This document shows positions 4,693 to 30,010 of a stretch of 64,000 bases of DNA, one piece after another. Within the stretch, counting starts at the first letter, position 1. Each line of letters opens with the position of its first letter. Source of the stretch: Salinisphaera sp. T31B1 (GTDB lineage: Bacteria > Pseudomonadota > Gammaproteobacteria > Nevskiales > Salinisphaeraceae); NCBI RefSeq assembly GCF_040361275.1, contig NZ_APNH01000001.1, forward strand, positions 496,001 to 560,000, read 5' to 3'. Both the position numbers and the translations under genes were made by a program. Below the pieces are notes generated by a model. That model was not told the origin of the DNA. It saw only the letters and a program-made list of their open reading frames with translations, and ran no database searches.

Positions 4693-6126
4693 CTAGAAGT
4701 TGTAGATCGTGGAGAACTGCACGTTCTGGGCGGTGGCGTCGACGCCGTCCTGCTGCTCGTAGAACGCCCGGTTGTATTCGATACCCAGGGTCAACGGATC
4801 GACCGGCGTGTAAAGCAGGTTGACCGCGAGCGTGTCGGAGTTGTCGTGGAACGCGGCGGTCGAATACGAGACGTTGTTCGGGTTTTCCGAGAACGCCTGG
4901 CCCCAGATCACGTTGCCCGTGAGCTCGGAGGTCAGCTCCTGGGAGATCGTCGCGATATAACCCCAGCGCTGGAATGCTTCCAGCTCGCCGTTGTTATTGA
5001 TATAGGTATCCGCACCACCGGCCGGCGCATAGATGTACTTGCCGATGCCTTCACCACCGGCCACGGTGCCCATGAGGGTCGTGCCCGTGGGCAGCGACCA
5101 GGTCGCACCCACATCCAGACCCCAGCCGAACGTCGTGTCGTTGCCGTTGTCGTCGGCGCCGTTGAAACCCTGGATATCGGCCTTCAGGTAGCGCGCGATG
5201 CCGGCCACCTGGAAGCTGACCGGGCCCTGCGAGCCCTGATAGCGGATCGCGAAATCGGGTAGCGGCGAGTCCTCGTTGCCGGTTTGGTTCGACTGGAAGT
5301 ACGGGGAGCCGTCGTCGCTCGCCAGTCCGTTCTCCACGCCATCACCGGTTGGCGTCTCGAGCGCCACGTCGAGCGTGCCGGCGTCCTTCATGTCGAACGT
5401 GTAGCGCACCTGAGCCTGACGCTCGAACAGCTGAGCCTGCGGGCCGTAGAAGTTCAGCGTGGTGCCGTAGTTGAAGTCCGAGAACGTGGACCAGTCGCGG
5501 CCGATCAGGAAGTTGCCCACTGTCAGATACGCACGACGAACACGCGGGTCCGGGCCATCGCCGAACGCGTCGCTGTAGTTGTCGCCGTAGAAATCCATCT
5601 CGATATAGCCGCCGATCTCGCCGAACGTCTCGGTTTCGGTGGTCGTGGACAGTTTCAGACGGGTCTGCTTGACGGTCGCGCCGATATTGCCGTCACCGGG
5701 GTGGTCGGTGCCTTTGGCATTGAGCGTGGCGATCGCGTCCGACGGACCGAGCGAGGCGCCGTGATCGTCCTCGAAGTCGTAGACCGCGTCGAACTTGAGA
5801 TAACCGTTGAGCTTGACGGTGGTATTGCCGACCTTGAAGCCGTCCGCGGGCTCCTTGTCTGCCTGGCCGATCGCGGTCTGCGAGGCCGCGTCGGTTTCGG
5901 AGCGGGCCTGCTGACGGGCCTGGGCCGCATCCTGCTGAGCGGCCATGTCGTCGACTTTCTGTTGCAGCATGCGAATCTGATCGCGCAGCTGCTGCATCTG
6001 ATCCTGCTGGCTGCCCTGGGCAAGCGCCGGCATGGCGGAAAACAGCATCGGTACGGCGATGGTGGTGCCCAGCACACCTCGGACGGCAGCCCGCACTCTG
6101 GCGGACCGGAACGGTGTCGTGCTCAT
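4693..6126 (-). CDS. DcaP-like trimeric outer-membrane porin
   Basis: A 477-residue precursor. Residues 1-36 form a signal peptide ending in AMPALA, followed by a short coiled coil (about 39-75, heptads around QMQQLRDQIRMLQQKVDDM) and then a beta-barrel with alternating strands and C-terminal phenylalanine (STIYNF), the recognition signal for the BAM complex. The order (coiled coil, GYLKFDAVYDF strand, RRAYLTVGNFLIGRDWSTF) matches DcaP-type porins, which take up small anionic or dicarboxylate solutes. The start at 6126 has a strong AGGGAG eight bases upstream. It is monocistronic: terminator downstream, divergent nucleotidase gene upstream. Its ribosome-binding region is perfectly complementary over 12 nt to the loop of two sRNAs at 26571-26932, so post-transcriptional repression is likely. 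Confidence 0.9.
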   Translation of the reverse strand: MSTTPFRSARVRAAVRGVLGTTIAVPMLFSAMPALAQGSQQDQMQQLRDQIRMLQQKVDDMAAQQDAAQARQQARSETDAASQTAIGQADKEPADGFKVGNTTVKLNGYLKFDAVYDFEDDHGASLGPSDAIATLNAKGTDHPGDGNIGATVKQTRLKLSTTTETETFGEIGGYIEMDFYGDNYSDAFGDGPDPRVRRAYLTVGNFLIGRDWSTFSDFNYGTTLNFYGPQAQLFERQAQVRYTFDMKDAGTLDVALETPTGDGVENGLASDDGSPYFQSNQTGNEDSPLPDFAIRYQGSQGPVSFQVAGIARYLKADIQGFNGADDNGNDTTFGWGLDVGATWSLPTGTTLMGTVAGGEGIGKYIYAPAGGADTYINNNGELEAFQRWGYIATISQELTSELTGNVIWGQAFSENPNNVSYSTAAFHDNSDTLAVNLLYTPVDPLTLGIEYNRAFYEQQDGVDATAQNVQFSTIYNF

Positions 6127-6128
6127 GA

Positions 6129-6140
6129 TTTTCTCCCTGA
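6129..6140 (-). promoter_or_regulatory. Porin Shine-Dalgarno region, predicted sRNA target
   Basis: The mRNA sequence UCAGGGAGAAAA (6140-6129) contains the AGGGAG ribosome-binding site and ends two bases before the AUG. It is the exact complement of UUUUCUCCCUGA in hairpin 2 of the sRNA copies at 26571-26684 and 26822-26932, and matches copy 27070-27189 with one mismatch. Pairing here would block ribosome entry. Confidence 0.6.
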
Positions 6141-6352
6141 TATACCTGAAATCCCCCGAAACCGTGCCCCAACACGATTCCGTTCGGTGAACTGTAACTG
6201 AACACGGCACCCGGTGCCATGGACAGACATATGCAACAATCGTCGACCGCGGCCCGAGCCAGCGGCAACAGCAACGCAGCGTCGACATGGCAACTGCCTG
6301 CAAGACTCGAGCCAGGGCGCCGACCGCGGCGATTACGACACGGCAACCGACC

Positions 6353-25596: not shown

Positions 25597-26202
25597 ATGA
25601 CCGTTTTGACGCCCACGGATTTCCGAAACATGCGATTCGTGTGTTCGTCGCCCAATGCCCGGGCCTTTCCTGCGCCGGAAGGCCCAGAGATCGCCTTCGC
25701 CGGCCGCTCCAATGCGGGCAAGTCCAGTGCATTGAATGCGATCTGCGATCGCGTCGGGCTGGCCCGGACGAGCAAGACACCGGGCCGCACGCAGGCGATC
25801 AATTTCTTCGAAAGCGGGCCGTGGCGCTTCGCCGATCTGCCCGGCTACGGCTTTGCCAAGGTGCCGCCCGCCACCAAGGCGGCCTGGCAGGCGCTGATCG
25901 AGGGTTATCTCAGCCGCCGCGAGACGCTGACCGGCGTCGTACTCGTCATGGATGCACGCCGGCCGCTGACGCCCTTCGACAGACAACTGCTCGATTGGGG
26001 CAGCGAATTCGGGTTGGCCTTCCACCTGATTCTCACCAAGGCCGACAAACTGTCGCGTAACCAGCAGGTCAACGCGCTGCGCGCGGTCGAGCAGGCAGTG
26101 AGCGGACCGACCGCCCAACTGTTCTCTGCCAGCAAGAAACAGGGGATCGATATCGCGCGCAAGGCGATCGCGCATCTGGCCACGCCCGATGCGGCGCCAT
26201 AA
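25597..26202 (+). CDS. engB: Ribosome biogenesis GTP-binding protein EngB (YihA/YsxC)
   Basis: A 201-residue TrmE-Era-EngA-EngB family GTPase. G1 is GRSNAGKSS (about residues 36-44), G2 lies in TSKTPGRTQ, G3 is DLPGYGFAKV, G4 is TKADK and G5 is SASKKQG. It is an essential factor in 50S subunit assembly. The position next to the polA region with an sRNA locus between is conserved with E. coli (yihA, spf, polA) and Pseudomonas (ErsA). Confidence 0.97.
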   Translation: MTVLTPTDFRNMRFVCSSPNARAFPAPEGPEIAFAGRSNAGKSSALNAICDRVGLARTSKTPGRTQAINFFESGPWRFADLPGYGFAKVPPATKAAWQALIEGYLSRRETLTGVVLVMDARRPLTPFDRQLLDWGSEFGLAFHLILTKADKLSRNQQVNALRAVEQAVSGPTAQLFSASKKQGIDIARKAIAHLATPDAAP

Positions 26203-26259: not shown

Positions 26260-26460
26260 ATGGCCTACGATATTCGTGCATGGCTGGATCGGGAAGGACA
26301 CCCGCAACTGCAAATCATCGACCGCGACTCGGGCAGCATACGTCTTGCCTGGGCACCGAGCAGTGGCCGTTCGCGCGAGATTAAGGCGTTGTTCCACGAG
26401 CTCATGTTACTGAGCGTGCGAGAGAATCTGGCAAACGGGCCCACCCGAGGCGTGAACTGA
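26260..26460 (+). CDS. Small conserved-looking hypothetical protein (66 aa)
   Basis: A 66-residue soluble protein with no signal peptide, cysteine or transmembrane segment. The N-terminal half looks like a beta-hairpin (PQLQIIDRDSGSIRLAWA) and the C-terminal half an amphipathic helix (REIKALFHELMLLSVRENL). The start at 26260 is chosen because AGGAG ends eight bases before it; the ATG at 26209 would place the Fur-like site in the coding region. I do not recognise the family. The promoter suggests iron-regulated expression. Confidence 0.65.
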   Translation: MAYDIRAWLDREGHPQLQIIDRDSGSIRLAWAPSSGRSREIKALFHELMLLSVRENLANGPTRGVN

Positions 26461-26500
26461 ACGCGCGCTCATCGACCCAGACCGACCACTTGTCGGGAAA

Positions 26501-26530
26501 CCGGCGCGTTTGATCGACGCGGCGGTTTTT
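26501..26530 (+). terminator. Intrinsic terminator after the 66-aa gene
   Basis: CCGGCGCG and CGCGGCGG (26501-26508, 26518-26525) pair in seven of eight positions around a nine-base loop and are followed by five T. It ends rightward transcription before the leftward sRNA cluster. Confidence 0.65.
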
Positions 26531-26570
26531 CTGTGTCATAAAGAGCGCAGATTGCTGATTGCTCAGGGAT

Positions 26571-26684
26571 AAAAAAAGCCCCGGCGGCAGGGGGAATACC
26601 GCCGGGGCGACAGGTTCGGTCTTGGGGGGGAACCGAACCGGTTTTACCGCTCAGGGAGAAAAGCGGGCAAGCGCGTTGCTTGCG
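26571..26684 (-). ncRNA. Tandem sRNA copy A
   Basis: About 114 nt, read leftward. Hairpin 1 is GCAAGC/GCTTGC (26667-26683). Hairpin 2 is AGCGG/CCGCT with loop UUUCUCCCUG (26647-26666). Hairpin 3 is an 8-bp stem with a C7 loop (26613-26639). The terminator is a 10-bp stem (26578-26608) whose loop contains CCCCC, followed by seven U (26577-26571). The start is placed 5-7 bases after the -10 at 26690-26694. No open reading frame of note is present. Direction is set independently by the T-run and the promoter. The C-rich loops resemble anti-Shine-Dalgarno seed regions. Confidence 0.82.
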
Positions 26685-26689
26685 TAAGG

Positions 26690-26717
26690 TAAGACCGGGC
26701 TATTTCGGTCGAGTTCC
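26690..26717 (-). promoter_or_regulatory. Sigma-E/AlgU-type promoter of sRNA copy A
   Basis: On the minus strand GGAACTC (26717-26711) and TCTTA (26694-26690) leave exactly 16 bases between GAACTC and TCTTA, the RpoE/AlgU arrangement. An A/T-rich block (26727-26750) lies just upstream and could act as an UP element. Confidence 0.68.
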
Positions 26718-26821
26718 ACGGTTGCGAAAAATATTTCGAAATTTTTTTTCGTACCCGATCCGGCTGGGGAGCCGGACACCGTGGGCAGCCTGATTGCTCA
26801 GGGAATCGAGACAGATCGCAT

Positions 26822-26932
26822 AAAAAAACCCCGACGGTAGGGGGAGTACCGTCGGGGCAAGATTCCGGTCATTGGGGGGAACCGGATTCGATTACCGCTC
26901 AGGGAGAAAAGCGGGCAAGCGCGTTGCTTGCA
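26822..26932 (-). ncRNA. Tandem sRNA copy B
   Basis: About 111 nt, the same order as copy A. Hairpin 1 GCAAGC/GCTTGC (26915-26931) and hairpin 2 (26895-26914) are identical to copy A. Hairpin 3 has a 6-bp stem TCCGGT/ACCGGA (26864-26886) with loop UUCCCCCCAAUG. The terminator stem is 10 bp (26829-26857) with loop ACUCCCCCU and seven U (26828-26822). Stem bases differ from copy A in a compensating way (for example CCCCGACGGT with ACCGTCGGGG), which supports selection on RNA structure. Confidence 0.84.
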
Positions 26933-26937
26933 CAGAA

Positions 26938-26965
26938 TCAGACCGAGGACGATCGGCAGAGTTCC
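26938..26965 (-). promoter_or_regulatory. Sigma-E/AlgU-type promoter of sRNA copy B
   Basis: GGAACTC (26965-26959) and TCTGA (26942-26938) with 16 bases between GAACTC and TCTGA; the -10 is the exact AlgU/RpoE consensus. The A/T-rich stretch CGAAAATATTTTCG (26974-26987) lies upstream. Confidence 0.75.
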
Positions 26966-27069
26966 GATGAACTCGAAAATATTTTCGTCCTGTTTTACGG
27001 GATCGAGCGACGCGTTCGAATTCAGGGGGTTGCAAACGACCATTCGCGGGGGCGAAGCGGTTGGAGCGC

Positions 27070-27189
27070 AAAAAAAAACCCTGGCGATAGGGGGAGTATC
27101 GCCAGGGTCAATTTTTGCCGGTCTTGGGGGAGAACCGGATTCCATGACCGCTCAGGGAGTAAAGCGGCTAAGCGCTATGCATCGCTTAT
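27070..27189 (-). ncRNA. Tandem sRNA copy C (divergent)
   Basis: About 120 nt. The fold is kept but sequence differs most. Hairpin 1 is TAAGCG/CGCTTA with another loop (27169-27188). Hairpin 2 has the same stem but loop UUUACUCCCUG (27148-27167). Hairpin 3 is CCGGT/ACCGG with loop UCUCCCCCAAG (27118-27138). The terminator is a 12-bp stem (27078-27108) with a C5 loop, followed by U residues to 27070. It is nearest to polA and is the first unit downstream of that gene. Confidence 0.8.
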
Positions 27190-27194
27190 GGTGT

Positions 27195-27222
27195 TGAGAC
27201 CGCACGGCGCATCGCGAGTTCC
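27195..27222 (-). promoter_or_regulatory. Sigma-E/AlgU-type promoter of sRNA copy C
   Basis: GGAACTC (27222-27216) and TCTCA (27199-27195) with 16 bases between GAACTC and TCTCA. A run of seven A and seven T on the plus strand (about 27232-27243) lies directly upstream and could serve as an UP element. Confidence 0.68.
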
Positions 27223-27307
27223 GCAGTCGGCAAAAAAATTTTTGGGCGGTTCGAGGGCCCATCGCCATCGATCCCGACGCTCGCACTTCTGGGCCCGGCG
27301 ATCGGGC

Positions 27308-30010
27308 TCAGTGAGCCTGTTCCCAGTTGTCCGCCACGCCGGCTTCAGCGAGCAGGGGGACGTCGAGCGTGGCCACCCGGCTCATGCGGTCGCCGATGGC
27401 CTGACCAAGGCGCTGCGCATGATCGCGCGGTACCTCGAAGACCAGTTCGTCGTGGACCTGCATGACCATGCGCGCCGGCTCGCCGGTCTCGCTCAACCAG
27501 GCATCCACGTCGATCATCGCTTTCTTGATCAGATCGGCCGCGGTCCCCTGCAGGGGCGCGTTGATGGCGGTACGTTCGGCATACTGGCGCCGCTGGCCGT
27601 TCTTGGCGTTGATCTCCGGCAGATACAGGCGACGCCCGTATAGCGTTTCTACATAGCCTTGCGCACGGGCGGCGCTGCGCGTGTCGTCCATGAAACGGCG
27701 CACGCCGGCGAACCGCTCGAAGAATTTCTCGATATAAGCGCCGGCCTCCTCGCGGCCGATATCCAGCTGCTTGGACAGGCCGTACGCGGACATGCCGTAC
27801 ATCAGACCGAAGTTGATCGCCTTGGCCGCCCGACGCTGGTCGTTGCTGACCTGATCGAGCGGCGTGTCGAAGACCTCGGCAGCGGTGGCCGCATGCACGT
27901 CGCGCCCATCGTTGAAAGCGGCCAGCAGAACCTCGTCACCCGACAGATGGGCCATGATGCGCAGTTCGATCTGGGAATAGTCCACCGCCAGAATCTGCTG
28001 ACCCTCCGGAGCGATGAACGCTTCACGGATACGGCGACCGGTCTCGGTACGGATCGGGATGTTCTGCAGGTTCGGATCCGACGACGACAGACGCCCGGTC
28101 GCCGCCACCGCCTGGTGATACGACGTATGAATACGTCCGGTCACCGGATTGATCTGGGTGGGCAGCTTGTCGGCATAGGTCGAACGCAGCTTGGACAGCT
28201 CCCGCCAGTCGACGATCATGGCCGGCAGTTCATGCCGGTCGGCGAGCTCGCGCAGCACGTCCTCGGCGGTCGACGGCGCGCCCTTGGGCGTCTTGCGAAT
28301 GACGGGCAACTCCAGCCGGTCGAACAGGATCTCCTTGAGCTGCGCGGGCGAGCCGAGGTTGAACTCGCCGCCGGCCGCCTCGAAGGCGGCCTGCTTGATC
28401 TGCTCCATGCGCTCGGCCATCTCCTGGCTGACCCGGGCAAGCAGATCGCGATCGACCAGCACGCCATTGGCCTCGACCCGGGCTAATACCGGCATCAGCG
28501 GCATCTCGATATCCGCGAACAGCGCCTTCAGGCGCGCGTTTTCGCACAGCCGGCCGTAGAGCAGTTGGTGCAACTGCAGGGTAACGTCGGCGTCTTCGGC
28601 CGCGTAAGGCGTGGCAACATCCAGATCGACCTGGTTGAAGGTGATCTGCTTGGCCCCCTTGCCGGCGACCTCTTCGAACTTGGTGGTCTTGCGCTCGAGA
28701 TACTTCTGCGCCAGTGAGTCCATGTCGTGGCGCGTGGCCGTGCTGTCGAGCACATAGGATTCGAGCATGGTGTCGAAATCCGCGCCGCGGACATCCACGC
28801 CATGCCGGCGCAGCACGTTGATGTCGTACTTGATGTGCTGACCGAGCTTGGGAATATCCGGGTTTTCAAGCACCCCGCGCACGCGCTCAAGCACGGTCGC
28901 CATCGGCAGCTGTTCGGGCGCGCCCATATAGTCATGGGCGACCGGCACATACCACGCTTCACCGGGCGCGACCGCGAACGACAGCCCGACCAGATTGGAG
29001 GCCATGGCCGACAGCGCGTCGGTCTCGGTGTCCACACAGATCAGGTCCGCCGCCTCCAGCTTGGCCATCATCGCGTCGAGGCCGGCGGTATCCAGCACCG
29101 TGTGATAGCTCGCCTGCTCGAGCGCGGCTGCCGGCGTGGTCTGCGGCGCCGGGGCATCCAGGTCCTCGAGAAACTTGTTGAATTCGTAGCGTCGGTAGAG
29201 CTCGGCCAGCGCTGCGGTATCGGGCGCGCGGCGGCTCAGCTCGCGGGCCTCGTCGGCCAGGTCCAGTTCGCACCGGATCGTCGCAAGATCCTGGTAGAGC
29301 GGTAGCTCATCGAGCTTGGCACGCAGGTTGTCGGCAACCTTGCCGCCGATCTGGTCGGCATGCTCGATCACGCCGGCCAGCGAGCCGTACTCATTGAGCC
29401 ACTTCGCCGCGGTCTTGGGTCCGACCTTGGCAACACCCGGGATATTGTCGGACGAGTCTCCCACCAGGGCCAGAAAATCGGTGATCAGCTCCGGGCCGAC
29501 GCCGAATTTGTCGTGTACGCGCGCCACATCGGTGACGCGATCCTGCATCGTGTCGAGCAGGGCCACGCGCTCGTTGACCAGCTGCGCCATGTCCTTATCG
29601 CCCGTGACGATCAGCACCTCGCCGGGGTCCCGCGCGGTGAGCGTGCCGATGACGTCGTCAGCCTCGACGCCGGCGACCTGCAGCATGGGCAGGCCCAGCG
29701 CTTCGATGACCGCCTTGATGCCCTCGAACTGAGCCGACAGCTCTTCGGGCACCGGCGGCCGGTTGGCCTTGTAGTCGGCGAACAACTCGTTGCGAAATGT
29801 ACCCCCACGGGGATCGAACACCACGACGATGCGATCGGCCTCGTACTCGCGCAGGAACTTGCGCAGCATGTTGGTCATGCCATAGATCGCGCCGGTGGGT
29901 TCGCCGTTGCCGTTGGTCAGCGGCGGCAGCACGTGATAGGCGCGATACAGCCACGACGAGCCGTCGATGAGAATCAGAGGGCCCTTGGGCGATACATCGG
30001 TTTGGGACAT
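27308..30010 (-). CDS. polA: DNA polymerase I
   Basis: A 900-residue three-domain enzyme for Okazaki-fragment maturation and repair. The N-terminal 5'-3' exonuclease (about 1-290) begins ILIDGSSWLYRAYH and has VTGDKDMAQLV. The 3'-5' proofreading domain (about 300-490) keeps its acidic residues (VDTETDALS and the YAAEDADVT block). The polymerase domain has motif A VDYSQIELR, motif B RRAAKAINFGLMYG and motif C QVHDELVFEV. It converges on engB across the sRNA cluster. A clear intrinsic terminator of its own is not seen, so read-through into the sRNA region is possible. Confidence 0.98.
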   Translation of the reverse strand: MSQTDVSPKGPLILIDGSSWLYRAYHVLPPLTNGNGEPTGAIYGMTNMLRKFLREYEADRIVVVFDPRGGTFRNELFADYKANRPPVPEELSAQFEGIKAVIEALGLPMLQVAGVEADDVIGTLTARDPGEVLIVTGDKDMAQLVNERVALLDTMQDRVTDVARVHDKFGVGPELITDFLALVGDSSDNIPGVAKVGPKTAAKWLNEYGSLAGVIEHADQIGGKVADNLRAKLDELPLYQDLATIRCELDLADEARELSRRAPDTAALAELYRRYEFNKFLEDLDAPAPQTTPAAALEQASYHTVLDTAGLDAMMAKLEAADLICVDTETDALSAMASNLVGLSFAVAPGEAWYVPVAHDYMGAPEQLPMATVLERVRGVLENPDIPKLGQHIKYDINVLRRHGVDVRGADFDTMLESYVLDSTATRHDMDSLAQKYLERKTTKFEEVAGKGAKQITFNQVDLDVATPYAAEDADVTLQLHQLLYGRLCENARLKALFADIEMPLMPVLARVEANGVLVDRDLLARVSQEMAERMEQIKQAAFEAAGGEFNLGSPAQLKEILFDRLELPVIRKTPKGAPSTAEDVLRELADRHELPAMIVDWRELSKLRSTYADKLPTQINPVTGRIHTSYHQAVAATGRLSSSDPNLQNIPIRTETGRRIREAFIAPEGQQILAVDYSQIELRIMAHLSGDEVLLAAFNDGRDVHAATAAEVFDTPLDQVSNDQRRAAKAINFGLMYGMSAYGLSKQLDIGREEAGAYIEKFFERFAGVRRFMDDTRSAARAQGYVETLYGRRLYLPEINAKNGQRRQYAERTAINAPLQGTAADLIKKAMIDVDAWLSETGEPARMVMQVHDELVFEVPRDHAQRLGQAIGDRMSRVATLDVPLLAEAGVADNWEQAH

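Follow-up and report, generated by a model that had tools for sequence, protein, structure and literature searches.

A tandem array of predicted small RNA genes with sigma-E-type promoter-like sites between polA and engB in Salinisphaera

Introduction

What are the three repeats that lie one behind the other between polA and engB in the salt-loving bacterium Salinisphaera sp. T31B1, and why are there several of them? A sequence-only reading of a 64,000-nucleotide stretch of this genome (hereafter the window, contig NZ_APNH01000001.1, positions 496,001 to 560,000) had proposed three tandem small RNA (sRNA) genes at the locus of Spot 42 and ErsA. In Pseudomonas, ErsA occupies the polA-engB intergenic region and depends on sigma-22, according to published work (PMC5819304, PMC7565897, PMC8575079). 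The work on sX13 of Xanthomonadaceae places this RNA always downstream of polA, describes its C-rich loops and its repression of mRNAs with 4G motifs, reports an activity that does not need Hfq, and notes both that the locus is common to Spot 42 and alpha-r7 and that the likeness is structural, without sequence similarity (PMC3771888).

Here, we argue that the window quite probably carries three paralogous, independently transcribed, sigma-E-driven genes for trans-acting sRNAs that repress mRNAs through C-rich loops. We then ask how far such RNAs extend among gammaproteobacteria and how the array relates to the RNAs already named.

Results

The array comprises three homologous direct repeats on the minus strand between polA and engB, at 26571-27243 of the window (Table 1), in the same order and orientation as polA-spf-yihA of E. 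coli. We take the convergent neighbour to be engB, following the sequence-only reading and gene order. The repeats are in register, with unit starts 248-253 nt apart and a mean column identity of 78% when the units are aligned with their flanks. Each unit is 116-125 nt long and holds four hairpins, of which the last is a strong terminator. Alignment, folding and a terminator scan thus bear out the earlier claim of three minus-strand units with one four-hairpin order and a terminator each, and the C-rich loops are as had been described. The boundaries given at the time, 26571-27222, stand at the lower end and fall short at the upper one: the -35 element of unit 1 begins at 27222, and the A/T tract above it runs to 27243.

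Table 1. Features of the array, its neighbours and the candidate target gene in the window.
Feature	Coordinates	Strand	Basis
sRNA unit 1, predicted transcript region	27070..27194	-	alignment, folding, promoter pattern, R1
sRNA unit 2, predicted transcript region	26822..26937	-	alignment, folding, promoter pattern, R1
sRNA unit 3, predicted transcript region	26571..26689	-	alignment, folding, promoter pattern, R1
A/T tract, UP-element-like, 5' of unit 1 promoter	27232..27243	-	sequence
sigma-E/AlgU-type promoter-like site, unit 1, GGAACT-N16-GTCTCA	27195..27222	-	genome pattern scan
A/T tract AAAATATTTT 5' of unit 2 promoter	26976..26985	-	sequence
sigma-E/AlgU-type promoter-like site, unit 2, GGAACT-N16-GTCTGA	26938..26965	-	genome pattern scan
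A/T-rich tract 5' of unit 3 promoter	26726..26750	-	sequence
sigma-E/AlgU-type promoter-like site, unit 3, GGAACT-N16-GTCTTA	26690..26717	-	genome pattern scan
Hairpin 2 of unit 1, CCGCUUUACUCCCUGAGCGGU (A; U in units 2 and 3)	27147..27167	-	hairpin 2 pattern search
Hairpin 2 of unit 2, CCGCUUUUCUCCCUGAGCGGU	26894..26914	-	hairpin 2 pattern search
Hairpin 2 of unit 3, CCGCUUUUCUCCCUGAGCGGU	26646..26666	-	hairpin 2 pattern search
Terminator hairpin 4 of unit 1, C5 loop	27077..27109	-	terminator scan
Terminator hairpin 4 of unit 2	26828..26858	-	terminator scan
Terminator hairpin 4 of unit 3	26578..26608	-	terminator scan
polA, upstream neighbour, array's strand	27308..30010	-	Pfam PF00476 and others
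engB/yihA, convergent neighbour	25597..26202	+	Pfam PF01926; tblastn synteny
dcaP-like porin gene, best candidate target (prediction)	4693..6126	-	Pfam PF19577, 68.9 bits; TCAGGGAGA in ribosome-binding region
Porin gene leader, GGGGGA and TCAGGGAGA sites (prediction)	6127..6157	-	sequence

The units are far more stable than shuffled sequences (fold z-scores -5.43, -6.35 and -6.89), and for none of them did any of 200 shuffles fold equally well. Variation among relatives gave a more direct view of the structure. We gathered units with a pattern of hairpin 2, allowing two mismatches, and aligned 52 of them: 98.0% of stem cells are paired and 16 of the 24 base pairs show two-sided changes, against a shuffle mean of 7.0 (0/500 shuffles reach 16); 91 cells carry such changes, compared with 22 in shuffles. 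The covariation lies in hairpins 1, 3 and 4. The six pairs of hairpin 2 are invariant, so that this set does not inform on pairing there, and the near invariance of CUCCCUGAGCGG across Salinisphaera is partly by construction because the units were gathered with the hairpin 2 pattern. In an 80-row alignment of wider relatives, which was fitted to the model and hence leans towards it, 23/24 pairs changed on both sides, including all six of hairpin 2, with 96.1% of cells paired. The CUCCCU-like loop of hairpin 2 is, by eye, mostly kept in these wider relatives, and hairpins 3 and 4 keep their C-rich loops among the 52 units. The sequence-only reading had seen selection on RNA in stems that vary while pairing is kept, and had named loss of pairing in relatives as an observation that would speak against it; the covariation of the 52 units supports the claim and pairing persists in both alignments. 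As for a conserved small ORF inside the RNA, an ATG is found in 40/52 units, but the longest closed frame has 16 codons and lengths vary between units; we rejected this candidate.

In the alignment, each window unit is preceded by an A/T tract, followed at constant spacing by GGAACTC and GGTCTnA. The last two resemble the consensus -35 and -10 elements of sigma-E/AlgU promoters. The pattern GGAACTN{16,17}GTCTNA has exactly three matches in the 4.36 Mb genome, one before each unit, and its reverse has four. Among the 52 related units, a permissive promoter pattern occurs in all and a stricter one in 45 (shuffle mean 0.3, maximum 3 in 200 shuffles), both patterns having been composed after the units had been seen; in 50/52, six or more A/T bases in a row lie within the 40 nt before the -35 element. 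The strict promoter also precedes 19 of 27 class loci outside Salinisphaera, against 0.17 expected, these loci (L136-L162) being the best hits of the covariance model R1 described below and including some near-duplicates; in the region 190-270 nt upstream it was found in 0/26. A scan of 26400-27400 for sigma-70-type promoters found none. The genome encodes rpoE (286.4 bits, cut-off 236.15). A pattern scan around this gene found no GGAAC- or GAACTT-type site, and hence autoregulation of sigma-E by the same consensus was not seen.

The array recurs across the genus. PolA of the window matches a S. shabanensis contig and a Salinisphaera sp. contig at 83-84%. In all 13 Salinisphaera genomes with a polA contig, the polA-engB interval holds 3-6 units, which makes 50 altogether; by pattern, six genomes have three copies, four have four, two have five and one has six. 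These numbers count once the three assemblies that are present twice in the sample, and in the six genomes compared the R1 counts equal the pattern counts. The hairpin 2 pattern occurs 3-6 times in each of 13/14 genus genomes; the remaining one (G010), in which the pattern was not found, is 81% complete and its PolA search gave a weak partial match only. In three sister-genus genomes the locus holds a single copy, detected by pattern in two of them (G014, G016) and by R1 in the third (G015, 100.3 bits). Both this range of 3-6 copies and the three sigma-E-type sites had been overlooked by the sequence-only reading. Its central claim, that tandem sRNA genes under selection at the RNA level lie at polA-engB, gains from the presence of the array in 13/13 genomes, from the covariation, and from the promoter-like site and terminator of each window unit.

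In a maximum likelihood tree of the 52 units, which must be interpreted with care since 23 of its 48 inner branches are open, last units form two groups that cut across species (five genomes, 94/88; four genomes, 92/84), and the first units of four genomes cluster with weak support (84/71). Middle units are often nearest within their own species (G001 U2-U5, 94/88; G007 U3-U4, 100/98). This fits, without proving it, birth and death of units inside the array with a steadier last copy. In the five-unit array of G005 (L115, 4380-5720), unit 2 is separated from unit 3 by a stretch that includes 238 open codons and by eye resembles an IS transposase there. In G014 (L121/L132), 1.8 kb separate polA from the single unit, and this interval contains an open stretch of 551 codons on the opposite strand.

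To see how far the RNA extends, we used two covariance models: R1, trained on the 52 units, and R2, trained on R1 hits, some of them from the named loci. The window units, which were in the training set, score 97.3-117.6 bits with R1. At E <= 0.01, R1 matched after polA in 50 of 77 named loci, including the sX13 place of Stenotrophomonas. R2 gave 54 hits in 53/77 loci, of which 53 lie within the 800 nt after polA, a span that makes up 6.6% of the sequence searched; 50 of these 53 are on the strand of polA. The hit is opposite to polA in the other three loci (L065, L008, L067). When the count is restricted to loci that extend 500 nt or more beyond polA, R2 hits 53/70 and leaves 17/70 without a hit, in a sample made of the PolA matches nearest to that of the window rather than drawn at random. 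The search of relatives that the sequence-only reading had suggested for the polA-engB gap was thus positive in most usable loci of other gammaproteobacteria. One Rhodanobacteraceae locus (L080, 11581-11707) has a second copy 3.8 kb downstream of polA.

In a sample of the whole class, R1 matched at least 138/369 genomes, a lower bound, with copy numbers that may be too low, because filters were strict and at most 10 candidates were scored per genome. polA and/or engB flank 25 of the 27 class loci L136-L162. Outside Salinisphaera, at most two R1 matches are listed per genome in this sample. Pairs on the same strand, with starts 172-228 nt apart, were seen in G131, G165, G207, G299, G300 and G379, and these positions suggest that two-copy tandems have formed in other parts of the class too. 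At its gathering thresholds, Rfam recognised no RNA in the window, and it named the locus RNA in one of 11 diverse relatives (L034, as anti-hemB); the sX13, ErsA and Spot 42 controls were all recognised in the same test. With one copy at the same spot in many relatives, the RNA appears to belong to an old family that has been little described and whose gene was multiplied in a single genus. In the open-access literature searched, we found no earlier description of a triplicated family, as had been claimed, nor a paper uniting ErsA, sX13 and the polA-downstream RNAs or dealing with a multiplied polA-engB array.

How do the units relate to the named RNAs? The best Rfam match is sX13 (RF02232), at 43.5, 37.0 and 25.4 bits (best E 1.1e-6), below the gathering cut-off of 50. 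The anti-hemB model (RF02837) gives 36.5, 35.9 and 34.1 bits (cut-off 49.5), the ErsA model (RF01719, Pseudomon-1) 23.9, 20.7 and 17 bits (cut-off 50), and that of Spot 42 (RF00021) lists one unit at 22 bits (cut-off 80). In the other direction, R2 found the ErsA locus without having been trained on it (31.2 bits, E 3.5e-6) and R1 gave 23.1 bits (E 1.1e-4), both E-values being rough, while Spot 42 was not significant with either R1 (10.1 bits, E 0.16) or R2 (11.4 bits, E 0.21). Of the proposed link to the Spot 42/ErsA locus, the location holds and the R2 match adds ErsA to it, but kinship with Spot 42 was not supported beyond location.

The polA-engB place is common to ErsA and the window array. 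With ErsA the units also share a promoter-like sequence of sigma-22/AlgU type and homology through a common model; with sX13, a position downstream of polA with C-rich loops; with Spot 42, the polA-yihA location. At the ErsA spot of a locus that RF01719 recognises at 121 bits (L169), AAAATATTTTC is followed by TGAACTT-N16-GTCATA, and an A/T tract is present. Differences are also clear. Hairpin 2 aligns poorly at ErsA, and ErsA is described as one gene where the window has three. The Stenotrophomonas copies of sX13 are recovered by R1 and R2 (L060 was in R2 training), yet 0/6 match the sigma-E-type pattern, unlike the window units. Spot 42 of E. coli shares gene neighbourhood and orientation with the array, without significant similarity in sequence and structure. 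Burkholderia anti-hemB/ncS04 has the CUCCCUGAGCGG hairpin and a terminator in common with the units, and its model is shorter; in the class sample, neither polA nor engB was matched within about 1.5 kb of the best anti-hemB hit (L178). We know of no sigma-E-type promoter on each copy in the sibling sRNAs of Neisseria and Burkholderia. As in the window, several homologous sRNAs per genome are described for NgncR_162/163 of Neisseria and for the double-hairpin RNAs of Burkholderia (RF02278), the latter with CU-rich regions; anti-hemB/ncS04 of B. cenocepacia is reported as a 105-nt transcript (PMC5688073).

The loop of hairpin 2, UCUCCCUGA, resembles the anti-Shine-Dalgarno end of 16S RNA. Its exact complement, TCAGGGAGA, lies before an ATG at 56 places in 14 genomes, compared with 2 for the reversed control. 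From this sequence match, the best candidate target is a predicted one, the dcaP-like porin gene of the window (Table 1). In the 8 closest of 20 dcaP-like matches in the genus (49-100% identity), AGGGAG stands just before the start codon in 8/8, a run of at least four G lies 20-38 nt before it in 8/8, and the full TCAGGGAGA occurs in 5/8. Ribosome-binding sites would be expected to contain AGGGAG in any case. We left the 12 more distant matches out of the orthologue scoring; some have AGGGAG at a possible start and others do not.

A wider claim, that TCAGGGAGA sites favour exported proteins, was dropped. By a crude heuristic and with orthologues not merged, 24 of 41 ORFs with such sites have export signals (the ORFs of at least 80 codons among 54 of the 56 places). 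The control TCAAGGAGA had them in 2/28 ORFs (from 30/102 places; p 1e-5 against TCAGGGAGA), and the strong Shine-Dalgarno control TCAGGAGGA in 8/17 ORFs (from 30/31 places; p 0.56), in a set where repeats were merged more strictly than in the other two. The bias towards envelope proteins held against the first control but not against the second; it is not specific, and we withdrew it.

Discussion

We propose that each unit is read from a sigma-E (RpoE/AlgU) type promoter, assisted by the A/T-rich upstream element, into an RNA of about 115-125 nt whose three hairpins include two with exposed C-rich loops and which ends in an intrinsic terminator of its own with a C5 loop. Envelope stress would free sigma-E and the three RNAs would be produced together. 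Their C-rich loops, above all that of hairpin 2, would pair with G-rich ribosome-binding sites and block translation of mRNAs that probably include those of outer-membrane proteins such as the DcaP porin. Added copies would raise the dose, leaving hairpins 1, 3 and 4 free to diverge with hairpin 2 fixed. We base this proposal on the units themselves, their predicted structures and covariation, the promoter-like sequences, synteny, the copy-number range and the breadth of the family; transcription and its dependence on sigma-E, the pairing of the loops, the targets and a possible part of Hfq are inferred from them. The mode of pairing is suggested by analogy with sX13, whose loops act on 4G mRNAs, and the regulation by analogy with the sigma-22 dependence of ErsA.

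One might imagine instead that hairpin 2 is mainly a protein-binding site, the RNA being a sponge or chaperone whose copy number serves titration and not mRNA pairing. Tandem copies suit titration, and the stem and loop of hairpin 2 barely change in 52 units in which the other stems covary, even if these units were gathered by hairpin 2. Yet in the 80-row set the stem covaries at all six pairs while the CUCCCU-like loop mostly stays, as one would expect if the loop paired with G-rich sites; C-rich loops are likewise retained in hairpins 3 and 4, and the hairpin 2 loop lacks the GGA motif of CsrA-type sites. We regard this explanation as unlikely. We give slightly less credit to the idea that recent unequal crossing-over produced redundant units that persist only by chance, with one of them active. 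The middle units that are nearest within their species (U2-U5 of G001, U3-U4 of G007) do indicate turnover. But a permissive promoter-like site precedes all 50 units of the 13 genomes, last units cluster across species with the support given above, and no genus genome with a polA contig has fewer than three units.

The shared place and orientation between polA and yihA raise the question of whether these are true Spot 42 orthologues, controlled by CRP and acting on carbon metabolism. This is very improbable given the scores, 22 bits against the Rfam cut-off of 80 and weak with R1 and R2, and given promoters that are sigma-E-like in a region where the sigma-70-type scan came back empty. Finally, tandem repeats downstream of a gene could be DNA-level repeats or a string of polA terminators rather than RNA genes. 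We can hardly credit this, in view of the promoter-like sites, the covariation in several helices, and the single relatives in other genera, which share both the place and the promoter type. Sigma-E-driven sRNA genes acting through C-rich loops thus remain our preferred reading.

The units probably work like ErsA and sX13 and probably form one family with both, even though Rfam's own cut-offs are not reached. We lean, with little more than even confidence, towards a broader view in which ErsA, sX13, the arrays and the unnamed polA-downstream RNAs would be one old gammaproteobacterial family of C-loop sRNAs, ancestrally driven by sigma-E, from which Salinisphaera would have made a birth-and-death array of 3-6 stress-induced siblings, with the anti-Shine-Dalgarno-like hairpin fixed and the other loops diversifying. 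Most of the usable gammaproteobacterial polA loci covered here, those with PolA nearest to that of the window, carry a match to such an RNA, often behind a promoter of the envelope-stress type, and RNAs named separately are connected by place, structure and promoter. The natural series of 1, 3, 4, 5 and 6 copies offers a way to test sRNA dose and divergence within one stress response.

The surroundings of the array hold two further elements. Between engB and the array lies a small open frame, MAYDIRAWLDREG..., at 26260-26460 (+), without a match in a Pfam search and with tblastn matches in 7 other array loci. A 13-mer, CCCTGAGCAATCA, echoes the 3' half of hairpin 2. Of 16 loci examined, 7 have it after the T-run of the last unit when one mismatch is allowed (the window, L002, L003, L004, L114, L118 and L119), and the window has a second copy 3' of unit 2 (26555-26569 and 26790-26804, both on the minus strand).
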